Assembly: GCA_963205385.1 (NCBI GenBank)
Contig: CAUJKE010000115.1
Coordinates: forward strand, 25,817-89,816
Source: Planctomycetota bacterium
GTDB lineage: Bacteria; Planctomycetota; Planctomycetia; Pirellulales; Pirellulaceae
Length of the DNA stretch: 64,000 nucleotides
Direction: 5' to 3'
The position numbers and the translations under genes are program-made. Positions 27,836-42,804 of the stretch are shown here, one piece after another (positions within the stretch are counted from its first letter, which is position 1; each line of letters opens with the position of its first letter). Below the pieces are notes generated by a model. The model saw nothing but the letters and a program-made list of their open reading frames with translations, did not search any database and was not told the DNA's origin.

Positions 27836-28594
27836 TCAGTTGGCCGGACGATCGGGCCACTTTGCACCAGCATCTATCCAGGCTCGCACGAGAGTAAGCT
27901 GTTCATTCGCCAGGCGATGCACGTCGGCTCTCGCCATGTCCTTTCTCTCGCCTGACAGAATCACGATCAACGGGCTATCCTTGCTGCTGCCCGGCACGAC
28001 CCATGGAGTTGTTCCCGCGAAGAAATCTTCCTTGCGATCCACACGAAATCCGCCAACCTGCTTGCTGGGGCCGTGACAGTGTAGGCACGACTTTTCAAAG
28101 ATCGGATAAACGTCGCTCCAAAAGGCTACCTGTTGATTGGACGCTGGTGCTGTCTCCGCAGAAGCGATTGGCCCTGTTTGATCCGCAGCGTACTCGGGAG
28201 GGCAGACTCCTGCGATTGATTCTGTAATCGGTTTCACGCTAGTTTGCGCCGCCCAGCCAAAAAGCGCTAAGACGGCTAAGAGTACCGATGCGGTCAACAG
28301 GCCGCTAATATAGGAGGACTTCGAAGGCGAGGTTGTTCTCCCGAGTCGGCGTTTTACCGTAACAACAATCCACTGCCAGTGCAGGCAAACATGCACAACA
28401 ACGAGCACGAGCAGGCCGAGACTGATCCAGAAATGAACGGCGCCCCATTGATGCCGAGTCAGCCCCCACAGACTCAACGCCTTGTTCGATCCTGGAGGCA
28501 ATGGAAAGCGAAGGATGTATCCGGTCGCAATCATCGCCACCATTAACACAGCGGCCAGCACGTCAACATGCAGGTTGTCGAGAATTCGTTTCAT
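27836..28594 (-). CDS. DUF4405-like membrane domain fused to a planctomycete cytochrome c domain
   Basis: The 252-residue product has three or four N-terminal membrane helices (HVDVLAAVLMVAMIATGYIL; GAVHFWISLGLLVLVVVHVC; SGLLTASVLLAVLALFGW) with conserved His residues that could bind haem b, in the DUF4405/cytochrome b561 style. The C-terminal half has a haem c motif, CLHCH, followed by VGGFRVDRKEDFF, typical of the PSCyt1 domain frequent in planctomycetes. It probably moves electrons across the membrane interface to a periplasmic partner. AAGGGAGG upstream fixes ATG 28594. A single CxxCH motif means one haem c. Confidence 0.8.
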   Translation of the reverse strand: MKRILDNLHVDVLAAVLMVAMIATGYILRFPLPPGSNKALSLWGLTRHQWGAVHFWISLGLLVLVVVHVCLHWQWIVVTVKRRLGRTTSPSKSSYISGLLTASVLLAVLALFGWAAQTSVKPITESIAGVCPPEYAADQTGPIASAETAPASNQQVAFWSDVYPIFEKSCLHCHGPSKQVGGFRVDRKEDFFAGTTPWVVPGSSKDSPLIVILSGERKDMARADVHRLANEQLTLVRAWIDAGAKWPDRPAN

Positions 28595-28768
28595 CCGTGA
28601 ACCTCCCTTCGGCGGAGGCATGCTTTATCAAATACATGTCATTGCTCTTTAATTTGCGAGCGGAAGACAAGAACCCATGTCATTGTACTCCTGCGGCCGC
28701 AGAAATTACAATCTTGCTCACAAACCATCGGCACGCTGGCGCAGGCGGAACCGTCAGAGACGCCGTCC

Positions 28769-28822
28769 CAGGGCTACCGTTTCGAAACGGCCAGCGGTCC
28801 CTCGGCCTCGCGGGTCGCCTGT
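28769..28822 (+). repeat. Dispersed repeat family A, copy 3 (diverged)
   Basis: Contains GGGCTACCGTTTCGAAACGG and CCAGCGGTCCCTCGGCCTCG, matching the 5' part of copy 1 with a few changes. It lies 70 bp upstream of the transglutaminase gene. Confidence 0.55.
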
Positions 28823-28890
28823 GCCACTTGGCGGCGGACCAGAGTAAGATAGAAGGCGAACCGCAATCCCATTGTTTTAGGACGGAGCCC

Positions 28891-30420
28891 ATGACGCGAA
28901 TTTTTCATAACCGCCCCTGGTGGATCGTCGGCGTACTTCTCATCGCAAACTTAGGTTGCCAGGAGACCACGGCCCCGGCGCAGCAACCGGGCACGGCGCA
29001 GGTGAGCGAGCGCGTCGCACCGCTGTCGCCGCGCGAGACGTGGGACGTCTATTTCATTGGGGATGCCAAGGTCGGCTATTCGCATACCAAGGTTGAAGCC
29101 CTCGCAAACGGCCAGGTGCAAACGACGAACTTCAGCGAAATGACGATGCAGCGGTTCGGCCAAACGATCACGCAGCAGGTCACGGTCTCCGCGGTCGAGT
29201 CCCAGGACGGGCAGCCGGTTAGCTTCTCCGCCGCGATGAAAGCAGGCCCCGCGGAAATGAAAACGACCGGCAAATGGGCCGCCGGCAAACTCACGCTCTC
29301 CTCCACGACGCTCGGCAAGGCCCAAACCAGCACCATCGACTGGCAGCGAGCCTACGGCGGCGTTTTCGCAGGCGAGCAAACGCTCGTCGCCCAGCCGATG
29401 AAGCCAGGCGAAAAACGCACGCTCCAGGCGCTCATCCCGATCATGAACACCATCGGCGAATTGCAGTTCACCGCGCACGACGTAGAACAGACAAAACTCC
29501 TCGAGGGCGCAGCGGACCTGCTCAAGATCGACTACGTCACGGTGATCTCGGGAACGAAGATCGACACCACGATTTGGGTTGATGAGCATGGGGAGATTCT
29601 CAAGTCGTACCTGCCGCAACTCAAACAGACCACCTATCGCACCACGCAGAAAGTCGCGCTGTCCAAGGAGGGCGCCGGCGCGTTCGATCTTGGCACCTCC
29701 ACGATTGTTAAAGTCAAACGCCAGCTTGATCGCCCGCACGCGACGAAGAAGATTGTCTACAAGGCGACGCTCCCCGACGGCGACATCAAAGATCTGTTCG
29801 TCTCCGGGCCAACGCAGCAAGTGAAAGTGCTCGACGAGCACACGGCCGAAGTCACCGTCACCGCCATCACGCCGGACGAGCCCAAGCAGCTAAGCACGCC
29901 GGAGGCGCCGCCGACCGACGACGACTTGAAGCCGAACAATCTGATTCAAAGCGACGACAAAACGGTCATCGCGCTCGCCAACTCGGTCGCTCAAGACGAG
30001 CAAGATCCTGGGAAAATCGCGCTCGCCTTGGAAGGACTGGTGCACCGCACCATAACCGCGAAGAATTTCACGCAAGCCTTCGCCACGGCGGCGGAAGTCG
30101 CGCAATCGAAGGAAGGGGACTGCACCGAACACGCCGTCCTGCTCGCAGCCCTCTTGAAAGCCCGCGGCATTCCCGCCCGCGGCGCGATGGGGCTGGTCTA
30201 CTATCCCAGCGGCGGCGGCTACGCGTATCACATGTGGACGGAAGCCTGGATCAAGGACCGCTGGATCCCACTGGACGCCACCCTCGGTCGCGGCGGCATC
30301 GGCGCGGCGCATTTAAAACTCGCTCATTCGAATTTGAAAGGGGCGGATGCGTATAGCGCCTTCCTCCCGGTCTTCCGCGTGCTGGGGCAGTTGAAGTTGG
30401 AAGTGGTGGAGGTGGAGTAG
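28891..30420 (+). CDS. Transglutaminase-like lipoprotein
   Basis: The 509-residue product starts with a lipoprotein signal (IVGVLLIANLGCQ; acylated Cys23) and so is probably anchored to a membrane outside the cytoplasm. The C-terminal third has the transglutaminase-like catalytic core in order: Cys in EGDCTEHAVLLAALLKARG, His in YAYHMWTEAW and Asp in WIPLDATLG. The N-terminal 350 residues are beta-rich and of unknown function. Such proteins usually act as cysteine peptidases or amidases. GGACGGAG lies upstream of ATG 28891. Confidence 0.85.
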   Translation: MTRIFHNRPWWIVGVLLIANLGCQETTAPAQQPGTAQVSERVAPLSPRETWDVYFIGDAKVGYSHTKVEALANGQVQTTNFSEMTMQRFGQTITQQVTVSAVESQDGQPVSFSAAMKAGPAEMKTTGKWAAGKLTLSSTTLGKAQTSTIDWQRAYGGVFAGEQTLVAQPMKPGEKRTLQALIPIMNTIGELQFTAHDVEQTKLLEGAADLLKIDYVTVISGTKIDTTIWVDEHGEILKSYLPQLKQTTYRTTQKVALSKEGAGAFDLGTSTIVKVKRQLDRPHATKKIVYKATLPDGDIKDLFVSGPTQQVKVLDEHTAEVTVTAITPDEPKQLSTPEAPPTDDDLKPNNLIQSDDKTVIALANSVAQDEQDPGKIALALEGLVHRTITAKNFTQAFATAAEVAQSKEGDCTEHAVLLAALLKARGIPARGAMGLVYYPSGGGYAYHMWTEAWIKDRWIPLDATLGRGGIGAAHLKLAHSNLKGADAYSAFLPVFRVLGQLKLEVVEVE

Positions 30421-33830: not shown

Positions 33831-34898
33831 ATGCACGCGAACCTCATGTTTCCACTTTTCCTCGTGTTATTGTTTACCGTTAACTCCTTGGCGGGTGAAC
33901 AGGTTAAAGAAAGCGAATCGCTCGAAAACAGGCCACTGATTCTTGAGATGCACGCATGGCGGATTAAAGACGGCAAGCTACATCGCATGGATGCGGAGGT
34001 GCAATTGCCGCGCGAAACGGTCGGCTTGGCGTTGGATCGCCGTCGGGCAGGTGGGCGCAATGGATTGATTCAATTCAGCACGCGACAAGGGGACGTCTTG
34101 TGGCGCAATTCGGTTCATGTGCGTGAGATTCAACGAGACCGGGTGGACATCAAATTTGAGACGTGCATTTCCGAAGGAGATTTTCGGCTTCAAGGAAGAT
34201 TCGAGGCCACACCGTCTCCAACCGATAAGGCCGTGGAAAATGTCAACAAGAAACAACGTTACGGTTATCAGGCCGTGCCGTTGGATAAGTGTGTGACAAG
34301 GACGGCGGGCGGTGGTTGGCGTCTGGGCGCAGACCTGGAGTGGGTGCGAGATGACGGATGGTTCGACGCGCGCATGGAGATGAAAGATGCTCCGCTCGCA
34401 TTACTCATTTGGGTGCGCACCGAACAGGATCCCCTGCCGGACATCATCAGAGCTTTAGAACGCAAGAATTCATCCTTCTTTCCCGCTGCGATAGCGGCAG
34501 GTTGGCGCAGCGCGGACGCGGATCCTGCGGTTCCATTTCTCATCGATGCGTTAAACGACGATGGCACTACAGAACGTCGCTTGGAGAATGCCAGAGAGGA
34601 CAAGACGGGTTGGCGGCCCCGCGCGGCGGCGGCGGAAGCGTTGGGACGGATTGGGCCCGTGGCCAAGGAGGCGGTGCCGCGGTTGACCGAGCTATTGAAA
34701 GACGAATTCGAAGGCGTGCGCTATCAAGCCGCCATCGCGCTCGGCGAGATTCGGCATCCCGACCCAGAGGCGATCGCGGCGCTGGAAGCGTTGGCCAAAT
34801 CAACCAACGACGTTCGCCTGCGCGAGTTCGCAGAGGACTCGCTCTGCCAACTGCAACGCGCCGCGCGCAAGGAAGCCAAAAAGTCTGCAGCGCCATAG
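33831..34898 (+). CDS. Secreted protein with C-terminal HEAT-like repeats, paralogue 1
   Basis: The 355-residue product has a signal peptide (FPLFLVLLFTVNSLAG) and a beta-rich N-terminal domain (EMHAWRIKDGKLHRMD, ISEGDFRLQG) that may bind a partner. The C-terminal 100 residues hold two HEAT-like helical repeats (AAEALGRIGPVAKEAVPRL and AAIALGEIRHPDPEAIAALE). The tandem neighbour at 34979 is a paralogue with the same layout. The 3' part of the two genes (34608-34898 and 35693-35983) is almost identical at the DNA level while the rest has diverged. Function is unknown; HEAT repeats point to protein binding. Confidence 0.8.
   Translation: MHANLMFPLFLVLLFTVNSLAGEQVKESESLENRPLILEMHAWRIKDGKLHRMDAEVQLPRETVGLALDRRRAGGRNGLIQFSTRQGDVLWRNSVHVREIQRDRVDIKFETCISEGDFRLQGRFEATPSPTDKAVENVNKKQRYGYQAVPLDKCVTRTAGGGWRLGADLEWVRDDGWFDARMEMKDAPLALLIWVRTEQDPLPDIIRALERKNSSFFPAAIAAGWRSADADPAVPFLIDALNDDGTTERRLENAREDKTGWRPRAAAAEALGRIGPVAKEAVPRLTELLKDEFEGVRYQAAIALGEIRHPDPEAIAALEALAKSTNDVRLREFAEDSLCQLQRAARKEAKKSAAP
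34608..34898 (+). repeat. HEAT-module direct repeat, copy 1
   Basis: Matches 35693-35983 over about 290 bp with roughly ten mismatches by eye; the flanking sequence upstream in both genes is clearly diverged. Confidence 0.8.
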
Positions 34899-34978
34899 GT
34901 AGGCGGGGTATAGTTCATCGACGGAAACTTCAAGCTCGTCATCGAGCGCTAACTAAACTGAGTCGCAAGGAGATTACC

Positions 34979-35983
34979 ATGAAGTCCATCGTTATCCTTC
35001 CGCTGGTTTTGGGATTGGTATTTGGCGCTAGGGCGCAGGGCGATGAAACAGTGCCTGCGAAAGAGACACCGGAGTACAGGCCGATCTTTGTCGAAATACA
35101 CGCGTGGCGGATTAAGGATGGGAAGTTATATCGGATGGATACGGACCTCGAATTGCCCCGTGAAATTGTTGAACTCGCTGCGGCGAAGAAGCTACCAGAG
35201 ACGCGTGGACGTTTTCGTTTCAGCACTCGGCAGGATGGTGTCTTGTGGCACAACTCCGTACAAGTGAGAAGTATTGATCATGACCGCGCGGATATCAGAA
35301 CCGAAACGAGCATTTCGGAAGGTGACTTTCGCGTCCAAGGGGCGCACGAATCCGTGATCAGCTCAGAACTCGACAGAGTCGCGGCCAACCATTCGACTAG
35401 CTGGCCATTGGTTGGAGGATTCCAGTGGTTTCGCTATTTTAGCGGGTTTGACAGACGAATGCAAATGGAGGAAGACTTGCTCAGAGTTTACACATGGGTT
35501 CGGCTGGAACAGGATCCGATGCCAGAACTCATCAAAATATTCGAGCGCAAAGATTCCTTGTTTTTTTCGGCCGCGCTGTGCGCAGGGTGGCGCAGCGCGG
35601 ATGCCGAGGCGGCAGTTCCTTTTCTCGTCGACGCATTGAGTGCTGATGGTTCGACGCGGCGCCGAGTGCGCGATCGGCCAGGCGACAACACCGGTTGGCG
35701 CGCCCGCGCGGCGGCGGCGGAAGCGTTGGGACGGATTGGGCCCGTGGCCAAGGAGGCGGTGCCGCGGTTGACCGAGCTGTTGAATGATGAATTCGAAGGC
35801 GTGCGCTATCAAGCCGCCATCGCGCTCGGCGAGATTCGGCATCCCGATCCAGAGGCGATCGCGGCGCTGGAAGCGTTGGCCAAATCAACCAACGACGTTC
35901 GCCTGCGCGAGTTCGCAGAGGACTCGCTCTGCCACCTGCAACGCGCCGCGCGGAAGGAAGCCAAAAAGTCTCCGGCGCCATAG
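34979..35983 (+). CDS. Secreted protein with C-terminal HEAT-like repeats, paralogue 2
   Basis: The 334-residue product mirrors its upstream neighbour: signal peptide (SIVILPLVLGLVFGARAQ), the IHAWRIKDGKLYRMD beta domain, a middle segment with FERKDSLFFSAALCAGWRSAD, and the same two HEAT-like repeats. AAGGAG lies 7 nt upstream of ATG 34979. The nearly identical 3' module against a diverged 5' part indicates gene conversion or a recent module exchange. Compared with paralogue 1 it lacks about 20 residues in the middle. Confidence 0.8.
   Translation: MKSIVILPLVLGLVFGARAQGDETVPAKETPEYRPIFVEIHAWRIKDGKLYRMDTDLELPREIVELAAAKKLPETRGRFRFSTRQDGVLWHNSVQVRSIDHDRADIRTETSISEGDFRVQGAHESVISSELDRVAANHSTSWPLVGGFQWFRYFSGFDRRMQMEEDLLRVYTWVRLEQDPMPELIKIFERKDSLFFSAALCAGWRSADAEAAVPFLVDALSADGSTRRRVRDRPGDNTGWRARAAAAEALGRIGPVAKEAVPRLTELLNDEFEGVRYQAAIALGEIRHPDPEAIAALEALAKSTNDVRLREFAEDSLCHLQRAARKEAKKSPAP
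35693..35983 (+). repeat. HEAT-module direct repeat, copy 2
   Basis: The counterpart of 34608-34898, at an offset of 1085 bp. The similarity continues a few bases past both stop codons (ATAGGTA). Confidence 0.8.
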
Positions 35984-36729: not shown

Positions 36730-37029
36730 ATGACGGACCAAGCCAAGCCCGCCGATCGCCAAGGGACGCGGGTCACATTTCTCGATCAAACCGGGGCCAA
36801 GAGTGTGGAGGCGGTGATTGCCGACACTGTCTCGGTCAAGCGCATTTTGCCCAACATCATCACCAAGATGAATCTGCCGGTGATGGGGCCTGACGGCCAG
36901 CCAATGAGCTATTCCCTCGACCACAAGGAAGGGGGCAAGCGGTTGCGTGAAGATCAAACGTTGCCTACGGCTTCCGTCCGCGACGGCGACCACTTGATTG
37001 TGTATCCGGAAATTGTCGCCGGGGCTTAA
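36730..37029 (+). CDS. YukD-like ubiquitin-fold protein (Ubl), the likely modifier
   Basis: The 99-residue product is a single beta-grasp domain. After a short N-tail it shows strand-strand-helix (RVTFLDQTGAKSVEAVIAD, VSVKRILPNIITKMNLP), the middle strand (MSYSLDHKEGGKRL) and the final strand DGDHLIVYPEIV, with the TLPTASVRDGDHL turn typical of YukD-like Ubls. It ends VAGA: Gly98 is followed by one Ala, so a peptidase would have to remove the last residue to expose a C-terminal Gly. Position at the head of an operon with E2, JAMM, E1 and RING genes makes it the likely conjugated modifier. Cytoplasmic; AGGAG upstream of ATG 36730. Confidence 0.85.
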   Translation: MTDQAKPADRQGTRVTFLDQTGAKSVEAVIADTVSVKRILPNIITKMNLPVMGPDGQPMSYSLDHKEGGKRLREDQTLPTASVRDGDHLIVYPEIVAGA

Positions 37030-37059
37030 CTCAAGGGATAGCTACGCAAGGATAGGCTC

Positions 37060-37806
37060 ATGGCGGAATCTCCTCGTAATCGCCGACTTCGCGCCGATCA
37101 CCGGGCATTGGAAACGTTGAAGCGCGAAAGCAACATCTTCGATTTCGTCGCCCGCGGCGAGATGCCGGATACGTATCTCTTGGTATTCAACGGGCGAGGC
37201 GTCTATCGGAGCGATCCCGCGGCGCCGGTCATGCCTAACGACCGCCACGAAGTTTATCTGCGCTTGGGGGCGGCCTATCCGCGGATGATGCCGGAACTGA
37301 CCTGGCGTTCGCCGATCTTTCATCCCAATATTTCGTCCAGCGGCGTGGTTTGTCTCGGCGGGTATGGAACGTATTGGGTGCCGAGCTTGAGCCTCGACGA
37401 GTTGTGCACCATGCTGTGGGACATGATTCGCTTCGAGAACTACGATCCCAATAGCCCGTACAATCGAGAAGCGGCAATTTGGGCGAAGCAGCAAAAGGAT
37501 TATCGCTTCCCACTCGACGCACGTCCGATCCGCGACCGCGTGGCGCAACAGCCGCGGGCCAGGCAGCCAGCAAAGCCGCAGCCAGCGACGCCGCAGCCAG
37601 TCAAGCCGCAGCTAAACAAGCCGCAGCCGCACTCGACGCCGCCAACCGTATTGTCGCCAACTTCATCGCCGGCGCCACCTTTGCCGCAACCAGTCGCTAA
37701 TCACGGGCCAACCTCCGACGGCATCCTGTTCCTCAGCGAGGAGATCGTGGAGGCGGAGGTTTTAGAAGATAGCGACAGCACGGCGGAGATCCTGTTCATC
37801 GATTAG
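37060..37806 (+). CDS. E2 ubiquitin-conjugating enzyme-like protein, catalytically intact
   Basis: The 248-residue product has a UBC core in residues about 5-150: PELTWRSPIFHPNISSSGVVCLG with the HPN oxyanion motif (88-90) and the catalytic Cys98 exactly 10 residues after the His, then a Trp-Val-Pro (WVPSLSLDEL) and a Tyr-Asp-Pro-Asn segment like the PN motif of eukaryotic E2s. A Pro/Gln/Lys-rich linker (about 165-215) leads to an acidic tail with two hydrophobic patches (GILFLSEE and AEILFID). It should take the Ubl from the E1 as a Cys thioester. AAGGA is upstream; it follows the Ubl gene by 30 nt. Confidence 0.9.
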   Translation: MAESPRNRRLRADHRALETLKRESNIFDFVARGEMPDTYLLVFNGRGVYRSDPAAPVMPNDRHEVYLRLGAAYPRMMPELTWRSPIFHPNISSSGVVCLGGYGTYWVPSLSLDELCTMLWDMIRFENYDPNSPYNREAAIWAKQQKDYRFPLDARPIRDRVAQQPRARQPAKPQPATPQPVKPQLNKPQPHSTPPTVLSPTSSPAPPLPQPVANHGPTSDGILFLSEEIVEAEVLEDSDSTAEILFID

Positions 37807-37840
37807 GGAGCGGAGAACTTGCCCGCTGAATGAGAAGCTC

Positions 37841-38374
37841 ATGTCTCCGTCGCCTACAACTTTACTTTCCGAATTTGGCATTCAGCAGCGTGGGAAGGCG
37901 ATAGGCGTCATCTATGCGGATGCGCCGGTGGTGCTGATGCAGGGGAACGCGTTGGACGCACTCGTGGCCTATTCGATGGAGGATTTGCAGCGCGAGCAGG
38001 GCGCGTTTTTGTTAGGGGTGCGGCATACTAAACCCTCGGCGCCGCACGGCGCGGTGGAAGTTCGCCACTTTGTGCGGGCGACCGAGACCCGCAATTCCAG
38101 CGGCGCGATCGCCTTCACGCCGGATACGTGGGCGGCGTTTCATCAGACGGCCCGCGAGCAATACCCGCAGGAAACGTTGCTCGGCTGGCATCACACGCAT
38201 CCCGGCATCAACGTGTTTCTTTCGCCGTACGACCTGTTCATCCACCGCCACTTCTTTCGCGAGCCGTGGCACATCGCGCTGGTTGTCGATCCATGCCGGC
38301 GCGAGTTTGGGTTCTTTCAATGGCGAAAGAACGAAATTGTCGATTGCGGGTTTATTTGCGTGGAGAGCGCCTGA
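37841..38374 (+). CDS. JAMM/JAB metallopeptidase, soluble
   Basis: The 177-residue product has a complete JAMM zinc site: Glu52 (REQGAFLLG), then GWHHTHPGINVFLSPYD with His118, His120, Ser128 and Asp131 in the HxHx7Sx2D spacing. It has no signal peptide or membrane segment. In Ubl operons such enzymes trim the Ubl precursor to expose the C-terminal Gly or remove the Ubl from targets. A paralogue with membrane anchors follows at 39874. It starts 34 nt after the E2 gene. Confidence 0.9.
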   Translation: MSPSPTTLLSEFGIQQRGKAIGVIYADAPVVLMQGNALDALVAYSMEDLQREQGAFLLGVRHTKPSAPHGAVEVRHFVRATETRNSSGAIAFTPDTWAAFHQTAREQYPQETLLGWHHTHPGINVFLSPYDLFIHRHFFREPWHIALVVDPCRREFGFFQWRKNEIVDCGFICVESA

Positions 38375-38496
38375 CGGCAAAATGGCGTTTAGCCGCGTGC
38401 GGTTTGCTCGCAGCCATCGCTAAGACAACGAACATCACCAACGAACATCATCAACGATCCAACTTTCCTTCGCCTGGCGCAACGGCAAGATTCCCC

Positions 38497-39651
38497 ATGT
38501 CCATCTTCCGCATTGACGACAACGATCATTACAGCCGCTTGCAGTTGATCGCGTGGTGGCGGCAAGAGCGGCTCGCGGCGGCCAGGATTGTGGTCGTGGG
38601 GGCGGGGGCGCTGGGGAACGAAGTGCTCAAGAACTTGGCGCTGATCGGCGTGGGGCAGGTGTATCTCGTCGATTTCGATGAGATTGAGCGCTCCAATCTC
38701 ACGCGCTCGGTCCTCTTTCGCCGCCGTGATTGCGGGCGACCCAAGGCGGAGGTCGCGGCGGAAGCGGTTCACGACTTAAACCCCGATACGCACGTCACCG
38801 CGGTGATGGGGAACGTCATTACCGATGTTGGCCTGGGCATTTTTCGCGACGCCGATGTCGTGATCGGCTGCCTCGACAATCGCGAGGCCCGACTGTGGGT
38901 CAATCGGCAGTGCTGGAAAATGAACACGCCATGGATTGACGGCGGCATTCAAGAACTCAACGGCGTGGTCAAGACGTTCCTCCCGCCGCACAGTGCGTGC
39001 TATGAATGCGCGATGACCGAGAACGATTACCGGCTGATCAACTTGCGCTATAGTTGCCCGTTGCTGAGGCGCGAAGACCTGCTCGCTGGCAAAGTGCCGA
39101 CCGCGCCGACGATCTCGTCGATTGTCGGCGCCTGGCAGGTGCAAGAGGCGCTCAAGATTCTGCACGACTTGCCGGTGGAAGGGGGCATCGCCCACGTTTA
39201 CAACGGGCAATCGAACCAGGTGTATACCACGCGGTTTCAGGTGAAAGAGGATTGCCTCAGCCATGAGACGTATGACGAGATTCTCGAACTGCCGCTCGCC
39301 GCGGAGCGTCACACGGCGGACGAGTTGTTCGCGGCGCTGCGCAAGCAGTTTCCGGGCGATGAAGCATTGGAACTGCTGCTCGATCGCGACCTGGTCGTCA
39401 CGCTCCGTTGCCAGCCTTGCGGTTATGAATTGCCGATCAACCGCGCGCAGCAAGCGGTGAGCCAGCACGAGGCGAAGTGTCCCCAGTGCGGCGGCGCGAC
39501 CACGCCCGAGATGGTGCATAGCATCCAACCCGGCACACCGCTGGCAGGCCAATCGCTTCGTTCGCTAGGCGTGCCGCCGTATGATATCGTGCGCGTGGCC
39601 AGCGGCGAGCGCGAAGTGTTCGCGTTGTTGAATGGGGATCGGCCGCCTTAA
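38497..39651 (+). CDS. E1/ThiF-family Ubl-activating enzyme with C-terminal zinc ribbon
   Basis: The 384-residue product has the adenylation domain of E1 enzymes: GAGALGNEVL (35-44), acidic Asp59, SNLTR (66-70), RPK (81-83) and CLDN (125-128). A CYEC pair (168-171) and a RYSCPL motif with Cys187 follow; Cys187 is in the place of the catalytic Cys of E1s, but this is inference. Residues about 300-335 form a zinc ribbon (CQPC, CPQC). The final 45 residues (SLRSLGVPPYDIVRV) look like a small beta-grasp domain, as in the E2-binding UFD of eukaryotic E1s. It should adenylate the Ubl and pass it to the E2. Confidence 0.9.
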   Translation: MSIFRIDDNDHYSRLQLIAWWRQERLAAARIVVVGAGALGNEVLKNLALIGVGQVYLVDFDEIERSNLTRSVLFRRRDCGRPKAEVAAEAVHDLNPDTHVTAVMGNVITDVGLGIFRDADVVIGCLDNREARLWVNRQCWKMNTPWIDGGIQELNGVVKTFLPPHSACYECAMTENDYRLINLRYSCPLLRREDLLAGKVPTAPTISSIVGAWQVQEALKILHDLPVEGGIAHVYNGQSNQVYTTRFQVKEDCLSHETYDEILELPLAAERHTADELFAALRKQFPGDEALELLLDRDLVVTLRCQPCGYELPINRAQQAVSQHEAKCPQCGGATTPEMVHSIQPGTPLAGQSLRSLGVPPYDIVRVASGEREVFALLNGDRPP

Positions 39652-39683
39652 GACGCACGGGCGACTTGCGTTGAGCGGCCGGG

Positions 39684-39812
39684 AGACTCATTCACCATCC
39701 GCACAAGGCGGATGGGGTCTTAGGCAGAACTTAGCGGGGAGCGTGGTTTAGCAGATCAGAGGTTAGCACACCAACTTATTCACCATCCAGGCAAGCTGGA
39801 TGGGGTCTATAG
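39684..39812 (-). repeat. Hairpin repeat family H, copies 4 and 5, inside the Ubl operon
   Basis: Two copies in opposite orientation to copies 1-3: 39684-39722 (stem CCATCCGC/GCGGATGG) and 39765-39812 (stem CCATCCAG/CTGGATGG). Both lie in the 222-bp gap between the E1 gene and the membrane JAMM gene, where they could reduce read-through into the distal three genes or stabilise the upstream mRNA. Confidence 0.75.
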
Positions 39813-39873
39813 CAGTCACAACGCCAAGGATTTATTTACTAGATCGTCCCCGTGGGGATGAGAACGAGTTAGC

Positions 39874-41286
39874 ATGGATCTCGATATTCAATTTGGCGAT
39901 GTGCAAGAGCAAGCGCCGGAGCGGCATCTGCGGCCGGATCGCAATGCACACTTTGCCGTTGCTGGATATGAGAATCCCACGCCGGGCGAACTGCCGGTGT
40001 TTCTCGATTTGGACGTGCTGCTGGATATGGAAGTCCATGCGGCCAGCGATACGTCGGTCGAACTTGGCGGCGTGCTGCTCGGCGGGCAATATCACGATGA
40101 GGATGGCCAACCGTTCGTTGTGATTACCGATAGTCTGCGGGCGCAGCATTATGAAAGCACCAAGGGGAGCTTCAAGTTCACGAAGGATACGTGGACCCAG
40201 ATCAATCGCCAGCGGAACGACTTTTCGCCGGAGTTGGCGATGGTCGGCTGGTATCACACGCATCCCGATTGGGGCGTGTTCCTGTCCGGCATGGACATGT
40301 TCATCTGCAACCATTTCTTCAACAAGCCGCTGGATGTGGCGTATGTGATCGATCCCTGCCGGGGCGATCGGGCGTTTTTTCAGTGGACCAACCAGCCCCG
40401 CCAGCGCTGTCAACGCACCGGCGGGTTTTATGTCATCGCGTCACGTTATCGCCAGGCCGAACTCGAAATGGCGGTTGCTCGTTTGCAAGGATCCAAAGAT
40501 ATGCCCAGCGATCCACGAACCTTTGGTCCATTTAGCGGAGGCGCGCCAGTGGTTAACATTTCGCAACCGCAGTCCCCCTATCAACACGTCGCTGTGATGG
40601 GGATGCTCACGATCCAACTCTGTTTGCTTGTGCTGTTAGCGTGGCGTTTGCTCGCGCCGCCGGCCGCGCCGCCGGCAGGCGAAAGCCCTGAACTTGCGAA
40701 AGTCGCCAAGCAACTCGAAGCGCTCGCCACGCTGACCGAATCCCAGCGCCAGCGCGAGGCCGAGGCGGTGGTGCTCGATAAAGTACTCAAGGAATTGCAC
40801 GGCACGCCGCAGGGATTGGTGCAAAATCTCACCCAGCGCGAACAAGAAAACGCGGCGCTTCAGGCCGCCATCTTGGGCCAGAACGCGCTTGCCGAGAAGC
40901 AGCGGAACGAACTCCTCGCGCTGAAGGCGGAGACGGCGACCACCACCAAACAACTGCTGACCTGGAAAGACGACTATAAGCAACTCAAGGAGTCGCACGA
41001 CAAACAAATAGCCAGCCTCAAGACGGAGTTGAAGAAGTACAAACCGGCGGAGAAGTCTGACGACGGGGATACCGCGAGCGCTCTGGCCAGCAACTGGACC
41101 TGGTATTGGATTGGCGGGGCACTCGTGGCGCTCGCGGCGCTAGGCTGCGTGGCGGCGACGATGTCGATTCGCCAAACGCCCGCCTTGTCGCCGGAGGAAG
41201 ATATCGCCGCCCGTCCGTTTGTGCCTGAGCAAGCGCCAGCGGACCATCAAGCGAACCCCGAGGAGGCCACTAAACCCAAGCATTAG
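39874..41286 (+). CDS. Membrane-anchored JAMM/JAB metallopeptidase with long coiled coil
   Basis: The 470-residue product has an N-terminal JAMM domain (Glu63; GWYHTHPDWGVFLSGMD with His128, His130, Ser138, Asp141), so the zinc site is intact. A hydrophobic segment at about 239-260 (LTIQLCLLVLLAWRLL) is followed by a helical coiled-coil region at about 272-392, a second membrane helix at about 409-430 (WYWIGGALVALAALGCVAA) and a 40-residue acidic tail. The layout places the catalytic domain at the membrane, probably on the cytoplasmic side, with the coiled coil on the opposite side or folded back. It may cleave Ubl from membrane-bound targets. Confidence 0.85.
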   Translation: MDLDIQFGDVQEQAPERHLRPDRNAHFAVAGYENPTPGELPVFLDLDVLLDMEVHAASDTSVELGGVLLGGQYHDEDGQPFVVITDSLRAQHYESTKGSFKFTKDTWTQINRQRNDFSPELAMVGWYHTHPDWGVFLSGMDMFICNHFFNKPLDVAYVIDPCRGDRAFFQWTNQPRQRCQRTGGFYVIASRYRQAELEMAVARLQGSKDMPSDPRTFGPFSGGAPVVNISQPQSPYQHVAVMGMLTIQLCLLVLLAWRLLAPPAAPPAGESPELAKVAKQLEALATLTESQRQREAEAVVLDKVLKELHGTPQGLVQNLTQREQENAALQAAILGQNALAEKQRNELLALKAETATTTKQLLTWKDDYKQLKESHDKQIASLKTELKKYKPAEKSDDGDTASALASNWTWYWIGGALVALAALGCVAATMSIRQTPALSPEEDIAARPFVPEQAPADHQANPEEATKPKH

Positions 41287-41316
41287 TGTTAGCGAGAGCG
41301 ACCTCGCACAAGTGGG

Positions 41317-41982
41317 ATGACTTTTATGTTTACTAAATCTCGAACCGAGCGGTTGCGGCGCGAGCATGACGCGCTCGTGGCGCTGCGCGCGGCGAGCACC
41401 ATTCTCGACTTTCAAACGGAGAAAGACCCGCCGGAGTTGTATACGGTCACGTTTCGCGGCCGCAGCGTTTGCCGGGCGAGCTCCGTGCGCGGGGGAGGAG
41501 AGATCTGCACCGTGCATCGCGTCGAGTGCAGGCTACCGTTTGCCTATCCGCGGGATGTCCCGGATCTGCGTTGGCGCACGCCGATCTTTCACCCCAACAT
41601 TTCGCACGACGGATTCATGAGCCTCCGCGAGCTCGGCATCCAGTGGAACGCGCAGATCATGCTCGATGCGCTCTGCGAGCGGCTGTGGGACGTGGCCCGC
41701 TTTGCCTATGTGAACTCGGCTGAGGTTCTCAACTACGCGGCGCAGCGCTGGCTCGACGAGCAGCCAGCGCACACGCTACCGCTCGATCCTCGCCCGCTGC
41801 GCGATGTGCGCCCCGCGCAGAGTTCCAACATCGTCGGGTACACGTTCACGCCAGACCGCAAGCTGGTGTTGCCGGCGGCGCGCGAAGCGCTCGACGTGCT
41901 ATTCATCGACGAAGACACGCCGACGCCTGAACTCCCGCGGCGCGCGGACGATGATGAAGTGTTTTACATTGGGGATGAGTAA
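41317..41982 (+). CDS. E2-fold protein with catalytic Cys replaced by Ser (pseudo-E2)
   Basis: The 221-residue product is a second UBC core. It keeps the HPN motif (FHPNISHDG, His92), but the residue 10 positions after the His, Cys in the first E2, is Ser102 (FMSLRELG, codon AGC). Trp110 and the later LDALCERLWDVARFAY match the first E2. The tail again has hydrophobic patches within an acidic context (VLFIDED and EVFYIGDE). A Ser-for-Cys change fits either a non-catalytic partner like eukaryotic UEV proteins or an oxyester-forming enzyme. ATG 41317 is used; ATG 41326 is a close alternative. Confidence 0.87.
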   Translation: MTFMFTKSRTERLRREHDALVALRAASTILDFQTEKDPPELYTVTFRGRSVCRASSVRGGGEICTVHRVECRLPFAYPRDVPDLRWRTPIFHPNISHDGFMSLRELGIQWNAQIMLDALCERLWDVARFAYVNSAEVLNYAAQRWLDEQPAHTLPLDPRPLRDVRPAQSSNIVGYTFTPDRKLVLPAAREALDVLFIDEDTPTPELPRRADDDEVFYIGDE

Positions 41983-41991
41983 GTCGCGGAC

Positions 41992-42804
41992 ATGCACCAC
42001 ATGGATGGATTCCCCTGTTTTATCCTGCTAGTGATCATCGCCGGCTCGCTCGCGGCCGCGTGGTTTGGCCGCACGCGCACGCGCGAAGTGCAGGCCGCGT
42101 TCGCGTCGGTCGCGCGGTGGTATCGCGGCGTGTACCTGCGCAATAGCTGGCTCGTCCCGCCGGTGATGGTCATTCCCTATGGGGATGAAAAGATCGTTGT
42201 GTCCGTCACCAGGCATGCCTTGGGGCGGAAATGCACCCAGGCCCGCATCCCGTGGGCGGCCAACGATGCTGTCGTGCAAATTCGCTCGAATCAAGCCTAT
42301 CTCCGCGGCGCCACGAGCGGGCATATGCTGCTCTTGCATCAAGACGAGTGGGACCGGCAATTCGTCGTCGAGACCAACGACGATGCAGCCGCGCGGCAGT
42401 TGCTCACTGGCGGCGTGCAAAGCGCCGTGATCATGCTCTCGCGCATTCGCCAGACCGGCGGCGTCGATATTTCGATTGGACTGGGCGAGTTCGTCGTGCA
42501 AAAGCTGGCCGTGCTCGATCAACCGGCCGAACTCTCCGCGTTTGTGCGGCATGTGTTGGAACTGTACGATCAAGCGTCCCTCTCGCGCTCTTGGGGCATC
42601 GACTTCATCGATCACACGCAGGCCCAAGTGCTCGAAGACGCGAAGTGCCCAGTCTGCGGCGACCTGATCACCGAAGGGATGGTGTTTTGCACCCGCTGCA
42701 AGACGCCGCACCACCGCGATTGCTGGACCTACTGTGGCAAGTGCGCCACCTACGGCTGCGGCGAGACGAATTTCGTCTATCCCCGCGTGGCCAAGCCGCG
42801 GTAG
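41992..42804 (+). CDS. Membrane-anchored RING-type zinc finger protein, candidate E3
   Basis: The 270-residue product has an N-terminal membrane helix (FPCFILLVIIAGSLAAAW, residues 7-24), a middle alpha/beta domain of unknown type (about 55-200), and a C-terminal RING-like finger: Cys219 and Cys222 (CPVC), Cys233 and Cys236 (CTRC), His241, Cys244, Cys248 and Cys251 (CGKC), which gives C-x2-C-x10-C-x2-C-x4-H-x2-C-x3-C-x2-C, enough ligands for two zinc ions in the cross-brace pattern. As the last gene of the Ubl operon it is the likely E3. The stop overlaps the convergent Nudix gene by 28 bp. Confidence 0.85.
   Translation: MHHMDGFPCFILLVIIAGSLAAAWFGRTRTREVQAAFASVARWYRGVYLRNSWLVPPVMVIPYGDEKIVVSVTRHALGRKCTQARIPWAANDAVVQIRSNQAYLRGATSGHMLLLHQDEWDRQFVVETNDDAAARQLLTGGVQSAVIMLSRIRQTGGVDISIGLGEFVVQKLAVLDQPAELSAFVRHVLELYDQASLSRSWGIDFIDHTQAQVLEDAKCPVCGDLITEGMVFCTRCKTPHHRDCWTYCGKCATYGCGETNFVYPRVAKPR

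Follow-up and report, generated by a model that had tools for sequence, protein, structure and literature searches.

A planctomycete seven-gene ubiquitin-like cassette with paired active and cysteine-less E2s and a likely role at the membrane

Introduction

Does a planctomycete gene cluster that groups a ubiquitin-like protein (Ubl) with E1, E2, JAMM and RING proteins encode a complete conjugation pathway and, if so, where in the cell might it act? The cluster in question, which we call the cassette, lies within a 64,000-nucleotide stretch of the genome of a Planctomycetota bacterium of the family Pirellulaceae (assembly GCA_963205385.1, contig CAUJKE010000115.1, positions 25,817 to 89,816); this whole stretch is referred to here as the window. 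Taking together the recurring gene order, intact active-site residues, hydrophobic spans, shared neighbouring genes and confident structure models of the E1 and RING proteins, we infer, as a reasonably likely reading, that the products of the cassette link the Ubl to, and release it from, proteins at the cytoplasmic membrane.

Cassettes of this kind are already known, with related planctomycete operons in print: the available part of Zuin 2014 (PMC4197634, citing Burroughs 2011) reports that operons related to that of Caldiarchaeum are found in Actinobacteria, Planctomycetes and Acidobacteria. The operons of Burroughs, Iyer and Aravind 2011, as relayed by PMC4197634, come from the same phylum as the cassette, and the RING family PF14446 is matched here. 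The available text of Grau-Bove 2015 (PMC4327156) states that a complete toolkit was not found in the bacterial genomes analysed there. The literature searched, which consisted of papers available in part and had Burroughs 2011 outside its scope, held no description of a planctomycete pseudo-E2 cassette, its order or its motifs; new from this analysis are the E2 tail motifs and the Ala-Gly (AG) end of the Ubl, along with a TtfA-like domain in the RING protein.

Results

The window encodes two E2s, two JAMM proteins and membrane-anchored parts

Seven open reading frames (ORFs) with checked coordinates lie on the plus strand between 36730 and 42804, and a Pfam scan placed all seven products above the curated cut-offs:

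36730..37029, plus strand: Ubl of the YukD family, 99 amino acids; PF08817 7.7e-16; C-terminus ...PEIVAG-A
37060..37806, plus strand: E2a, an active-type E2, 248 amino acids; HPN motif and Cys98; UQ_con 3.8e-12; C-terminal TAEILFID
37841..38374, plus strand: JAMM1, soluble, 177 amino acids; intact HTHP...SPYD; Prok-JAB 6.7e-06, JAB 7.7e-06
38497..39651, plus strand: E1, 384 amino acids; single ThiF adenylation domain, 1.6e-56; C-terminal zinc ribbon
39874..41286, plus strand: JAMM2, 470 amino acids; intact HTHP...SGMD; JAB 6.4e-10
41317..41982, plus strand: E2b, the pseudo-E2, 221 amino acids; UQ_con 1.2e-07; Ser102 at the catalytic place
41992..42804, plus strand: RING protein, 270 amino acids; N-terminal span, TtfA/DUF3137-like domain and C-terminal Prok-RING_1 2.3e-12

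A first-pass annotation, made from the letters of the window, had described seven genes on one strand, with two E2s, two JAMM proteins and membrane-anchored parts, as a full activation, conjugation, ligation and removal set. All seven ORFs were found in their given places, each with Pfam support; the UBC and JAB profiles that it had proposed as a check match all four E2 and JAMM genes above the curated cut-offs, hydrophobic spans account for the membrane-anchored parts, and the set as a whole is supported by the profile matches, by the residues at the active sites and by structure models of two of the proteins. The annotation had made no mention of the AG end of the Ubl, the family to which the pseudo-E2 belongs, the conserved tails of the E2s, the ubiquitin-fold domain of the E1 or the TtfA-like domain. 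Its remark that the gaps mostly stay below 125 base pairs (bp) is right for five of them, of 9-122 bp, but not for the 222 bp between E1 and JAMM2 (gaps in gene order: 30, 34, 122, 222, 30 and 9 bp). This widest gap (window 39652-39873) contains, as judged by eye, a short sequence that ends in GGATGGGGTCT and is present in two similar copies.

The E1, whose start we read from the ATG at 38497 in a frame that is open from 38128, has an invariant Cys187 in alignment, and its structure model is confident (predicted local distance difference test score, pLDDT, 91.2; predicted template modelling score, pTM, 0.90). Fold matches of the model place the zinc ribbon that the annotation had recognised within a predicted C-terminal ubiquitin-fold domain, which lies past the region matched by ThiF and MoeB. 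A second, more distant ThiF-family protein is encoded elsewhere in the window genome (G000:C148:3892-4362; 35% identity, residues 21-175).

Cys98 of E2a aligns at the canonical place, as had been claimed, and a Pro-rich linker is visible by eye. The isopeptidase metal site (E, HxHP, SxxD) is intact in JAMM1 and JAMM2. No hydrophobic span was found in JAMM1, and JAMM2 has spans near 239-257 and 413-431, with at least two in 24/24 JAMM2 proteins; the description of JAMM2 as a membrane protein with a coiled coil thus stands for its two spans, the coiled coil being seen by eye and its EzrA/SMC matches falling below threshold. The RING protein was rightly described as a membrane protein: it carries one N-terminal hydrophobic span, a TtfA-like domain beside the membrane in a confident structure model, and PF14446 (Prok-RING_1) at 47.1 bits against a cut-off of 29.1. 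The Pfam entry for this family presumably describes membrane helices in bacterial members. A PF14446 RING protein next to E1, E2, Ubl and JAB genes is also the arrangement of a Prok-RING ubiquitin-like operon.

The gene order recurs in Pirellulaceae and their relatives

A contig scan with an alignment of the pseudo-E2 yielded 20 loci, 18 in records titled planctomycete and two (L047, L048) titled 'bacterium'. Fifteen are uncut within the cassette (L047-L053, L055-L057, L060, L062, L064-L066; the Ubl of L062 is partly cut), and all 15 have the order Ubl, Cys-containing E2, JAMM1, E1, JAMM2, Cys-less E2 on one strand. Since the pseudo-E2 was the query, its presence in these loci is by construction; the order itself, because it recurs in 15/15, is more than chance. 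One to three RING genes follow the pseudo-E2 in 13/15, and the parts present in the five cut loci keep the same order. The tabulation of gene order across Planctomycetota that the annotation had suggested as a check did not bear out its view that the arrangement looks uncommon: the cassette recurs in Pirellulaceae and relatives as one of at least four related Planctomycetota layouts, and we rejected a unique arrangement.

These other layouts came from two further searches. An E1 search (E <= 1e-40) matched 22 of 294 sampled Planctomycetota genomes, that of the window included, and the 22 loci taken around E1s of the 21 other genomes, some of them cut by contig ends, show two layouts besides the seven-gene set, namely a compact quartet (E1-Ubl-E2-JAMM) and a longer one (Ubl-E1-JAMM-FHA membrane protein-RING proteins-E2); at L030 the E1 alone was recognised. 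The longer layout occurs at L031, L032, L034, L035, L037 and L038, where likeness to L035 was judged by eye; L035 itself, which was tested, encodes a membrane-type protein with an FHA domain, and one RING protein there is a fusion with a trypsin-like protease domain.

Within the order of the window genome, the pseudo-E2 profile (1e-20) matched 13 of 196 genomes, again including its own. Eight loci (L080-L087) from the 12 other matching genomes were examined: L080, L081 and L082 carry the seven-gene set (L080 repeats the L064 contig and L082 the L056 contig), L086 and L087 the longer layout, and L083, L084 and L085 a fourth layout of five genes, Ubl-E2-E1-JAMM2-RING, without JAMM1 and the pseudo-E2. 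Our gene maps favour long ORFs with little overlap, so that a gene may escape them, and missing genes were sought again separately; on re-examination, the gene ends at L083-L085 leave no space for JAMM1 or the pseudo-E2.

The pseudo-E2 belongs to a family without the catalytic cysteine

The annotation had proposed that the second E2 fold lacks its catalytic Cys, and Ser102 of E2b indeed aligns there. This is no isolated loss, since aligned sequences place the cassette pseudo-E2 in a whole family without this residue: 82/113 homologues in the protein database lack the Cys, with replacements by N (26), R (24), K (11), S (7), D (4), F (3), H (2), T (2) and A, E or Q (1 each). The HPN motif and the subsequent LCERLWDVAR-like helix are retained in the Cys-less homologues; at L081 the Asn of HPN is gone as well as the Cys. 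All 19 E2s of the E1-centred loci, besides the two of the window, retain the Cys.

In a tree of domain-trimmed E2s (175 rows before and 167 after removal of near-duplicates), which omits L080 and L082 as copies and did not pick up the L081 pseudo-E2, the 98 Cys-less rows all fall on one side of one branch, whose support of 43 is weak. An earlier 56-row tree that included mis-trimmed rows (L051_E2b, L040, L041, L045) gave no single pseudo-E2 group and placed L064_E2b outside the main clade.

Both E2 types end in recurrent peptides. A DILFIE-like hydrophobic-acidic end is present in every active E2 from the seven- and five-gene sets (20/20), against a background of 26/1597 for the pattern among ORFs of more than 150 amino acids in the loci examined; this background counts the E2s as well and contains many spurious ORFs. 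The pseudo-E2 tails carry a DVLFIGEDTPxP-like motif and a terminal DDVLYIGDE-like motif; the pattern is found in 18/22 (with L051 read in its correct frame) and misses L059, L065, L066 and L081. Because three compact quartets (L027-L029) have an E2 end similar to the DILFIE-like peptide, the Ubl, the E1 or the JAMM is the probable partner of the E2 tail. The tail peptide may resemble SUMO-interacting motifs.

Eukaryotic UEV proteins such as Mms2 and TSG101 likewise have a UBC fold without the catalytic Cys and pair with active E2s. The pseudo-E2 shares that fold, with UQ_con above its cut-off, and that loss, and it may pair in the same way; special kinship with UEVs was not apparent, as the 60 best PDB matches listed named E2 enzymes, several in engineered or bound forms.

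A conserved Ala-Gly is the probable mature end of the Ubl family

The Ubl matches PF08817 (YukD/EsaB family) at 59.1 bits against a cut-off of 27. It is the only YukD domain found in the window genome and adjoins E1, E2, JAMM and RING genes, not a type VII secretion system, and we rejected a secretion-system YukD. AG occurs at the same place in all 42 distinct family Ubls, that of the window included; 22 end there, 19 continue for 1-9 residues, and the frame of L038, which may be misread, continues for 51. AG would thus be the mature end of the Ubl, and JAMM1 the putative enzyme that trims it.

Discussion

Comparison with known systems

In the available text of Hennell James 2017 (PMC5654768), the E1/E2/RING/Rpn11 cascade of Caldiarchaeum subterraneum was reconstituted in vitro, and its JAMM trims the modifier precursor. 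There, as in the cassette, a Ubl, an E1 with a C-terminal UBL domain, an E2, a RING protein and a JAMM are encoded together; by sequence and model the cassette has all of these, the E1 with a catalytic Cys and a ubiquitin-like domain at its C-terminus. The Caldiarchaeum modifier, however, matures to GG, with one E2, one JAMM and a small RING protein, whereas the cassette has a YukD-family Ubl with AG (and no GG end in the 42 family Ubls) and adds a pseudo-E2 and a second JAMM; this JAMM and the RING protein are membrane proteins.

Bil (BilABCD) also keeps Ubl, E2, JAB and E1 in a single operon, but differs, in the available description (PMC11354881), by the two Ubl domains of BilA, the CEHH motif of BilB and the two adenylation domains of BilD; the cassette has one Ubl domain, an HPN E2 and one adenylation domain, and it additionally encodes RING, pseudo-E2 and JAMM2 proteins. 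Bil membership was rejected on the 99-residue single-YukD Ubl, the HPN...C E2 and the single ThiF match. E1, E2 and JAB components are shared, too, with the bacterial operon types 6a-6e (PMC1779556) and Bub (PMC13373217), as far as these sources were available. Type 6e combines an inactive RWD-like E2 fold with a poly-Ubl and a JAB-E1 fusion, no active E2 being listed in the accessible text (PMC1779556), while in the cassette an active E2 is encoded alongside the pseudo-E2 and is its close paralogue.

A proposed pathway and its alternatives

In the pathway that we propose, soluble JAMM1 would trim any residues past ...AG, and E1 would adenylate the AG carboxylate and then form a thioester on Cys187. 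E2a would dock on the E1 ubiquitin-fold domain and receive the Ubl on Cys98. Anchored by its N-terminal span, the RING protein would bring charged E2a to targets, possibly held by its TtfA-like domain; the pseudo-E2 might serve as a UEV-like, non-catalytic partner of E2a or RING, the tails of both E2s binding the Ubl or E1. Membrane JAMM2 would finally take the Ubl off membrane targets. The targets may be membrane proteins, as the annotation had suggested from the membrane anchors of JAMM2 and the RING protein.

Several observations weigh against this proposal. Presence is patchy, both in the E1 search and within the order, where several of the 13 matching genomes carry other layouts, and the RING gene is not in place at L060, L066 or the cut locus L061. 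Ubiquitin, ThiS and MoaD end in GG, unlike the AG here, and of the two small proteins beside the E1 of a Crinalium plasmid neither has AG and one ends in GGY. A Ubl tail past AG occurs in 6/17 seven-gene sets with JAMM1 and 0/3 sets without it, a weak test of the trimming role. The E1 ubiquitin-fold domain is placed only roughly alike, because several fold matches to SUMO and NEDD8 E1s reach no further than model residues 258-341 and the root mean square deviations (rmsd) of the long alignments are 4.2-8.1. The partners named for the pseudo-E2 and the E2 tails are guesses.

The same machinery could be arranged differently, with the pseudo-E2 not partnering E2a but acting as a reader: it would bind conjugated Ubl at the membrane and pass it to JAMM2. 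The order JAMM2-pseudo-E2-RING does place it in the membrane half, and inactive bacterial E2 folds have been proposed to bind Ub moieties (Iyer 2006, PMC1779556, in its available text); in 3/3 five-gene relatives, however, the pseudo-E2 is absent along with soluble JAMM1 and not with JAMM2, and we regard a reader role as doubtful. That the cassette is instead an anti-phage defence like Bil or the type II cyclic oligonucleotide-based anti-phage signalling system (CBASS), tagging phage or effector proteins, we consider unlikely. E1, E2 and JAB relatives are found in defence systems, PADLOC gave single-component matches (E1-E2 9.4e-21, BilD 3.4e-09, BilC 5.8e-04), the cassette is patchy, and a related compact set sits on a mobilizable Crinalium plasmid. 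Set against this are neighbours common to the loci (a transglutaminase gene precedes the cassette at ten others, and a NUDIX, TolB-like or cobalamin adenosyltransferase gene follows it at six), phage records none of which matches E1 at 1e-30, and the absence of a RING protein and of membrane anchoring from the Bil components that the available text of PMC11354881 lists. Least probable would be a Ubl that acts as a sulfur carrier or non-covalent regulator, with E2 and RING genes doing something else, since an intact-Cys E2a, two JAMM domains and a RING protein stand together in one cassette and the E1 has its extra C-terminal domain outside the ThiF/MoeB-matched region.

Should the chemistry of the membrane conjugation pathway hold, it would be a bacterial E1-E2-E3-deubiquitinase set with a dedicated dead E2, a membrane-bound writer and eraser, and the same neighbours across several genera, and it would be a bacterial counterpart of membrane-protein ubiquitination in human cells. 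The origins of pseudo-E2s and membrane RING ligases, as well as a role of bacterial ubiquitin-like tagging beyond phage defence, would then become testable in bacteria; both the AG end and the tail peptide of the E2s offer simple targets for mutation. As a more speculative extension, the cassette might conduct planctomycete membrane-protein quality control or signalling on ubiquitin logic, a UEV-type pseudo-E2 and the active E2 serving a membrane RING ligase. The TtfA/CCDC47-like domain of this ligase would hold client membrane proteins, a membrane JAMM would erase the mark, and the short hydrophobic-acidic peptides of both E2 tails would read the single Ala-Gly end of the modifier.

Flanking genes and further observations

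Vertical inheritance of the cassette is suggested because neighbouring genes are often shared; together with the phage and plasmid scan, these neighbours point to vertical inheritance with losses. One upstream gene, which we do not claim as part of the cassette, is:

28501..30420, plus strand: transglutaminase-fold protein, lipoprotein-like by eye; Transglut_core 6.1e-18

It lies about 6.3 kb upstream of the cassette (own-genome match 7.2e-145, stretch 28966-30417) and is likewise upstream at 10 other distinct loci; it was not found at some, for example L049, L057, L065, L066 and L085. The shared downstream genes occur in the window and at L056, L058, L063, L065, L081 and L083. The only plasmid record matching E1 at 1e-30 is that of Crinalium (NC_019754.1, L088), with a compact set; this cyanobacterial mobilizable plasmid encodes, beside a conjugation gene, an E1 and an E2 together with a Mov34 protein and two small proteins that resemble each other.

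A divergent conserved gene of about 235 amino acids lies upstream of the cassette at L048 (1330-2019), L053 (1125-1826), L064 (1826-2545) and L065 (3621-4346), and the L048 copy, which was tested, has no Pfam match. Two adjoining HEAT-repeat ORFs at window 33831-35983 have C-termini that are nearly identical by eye, with Pfam HEAT confirmed for the first.

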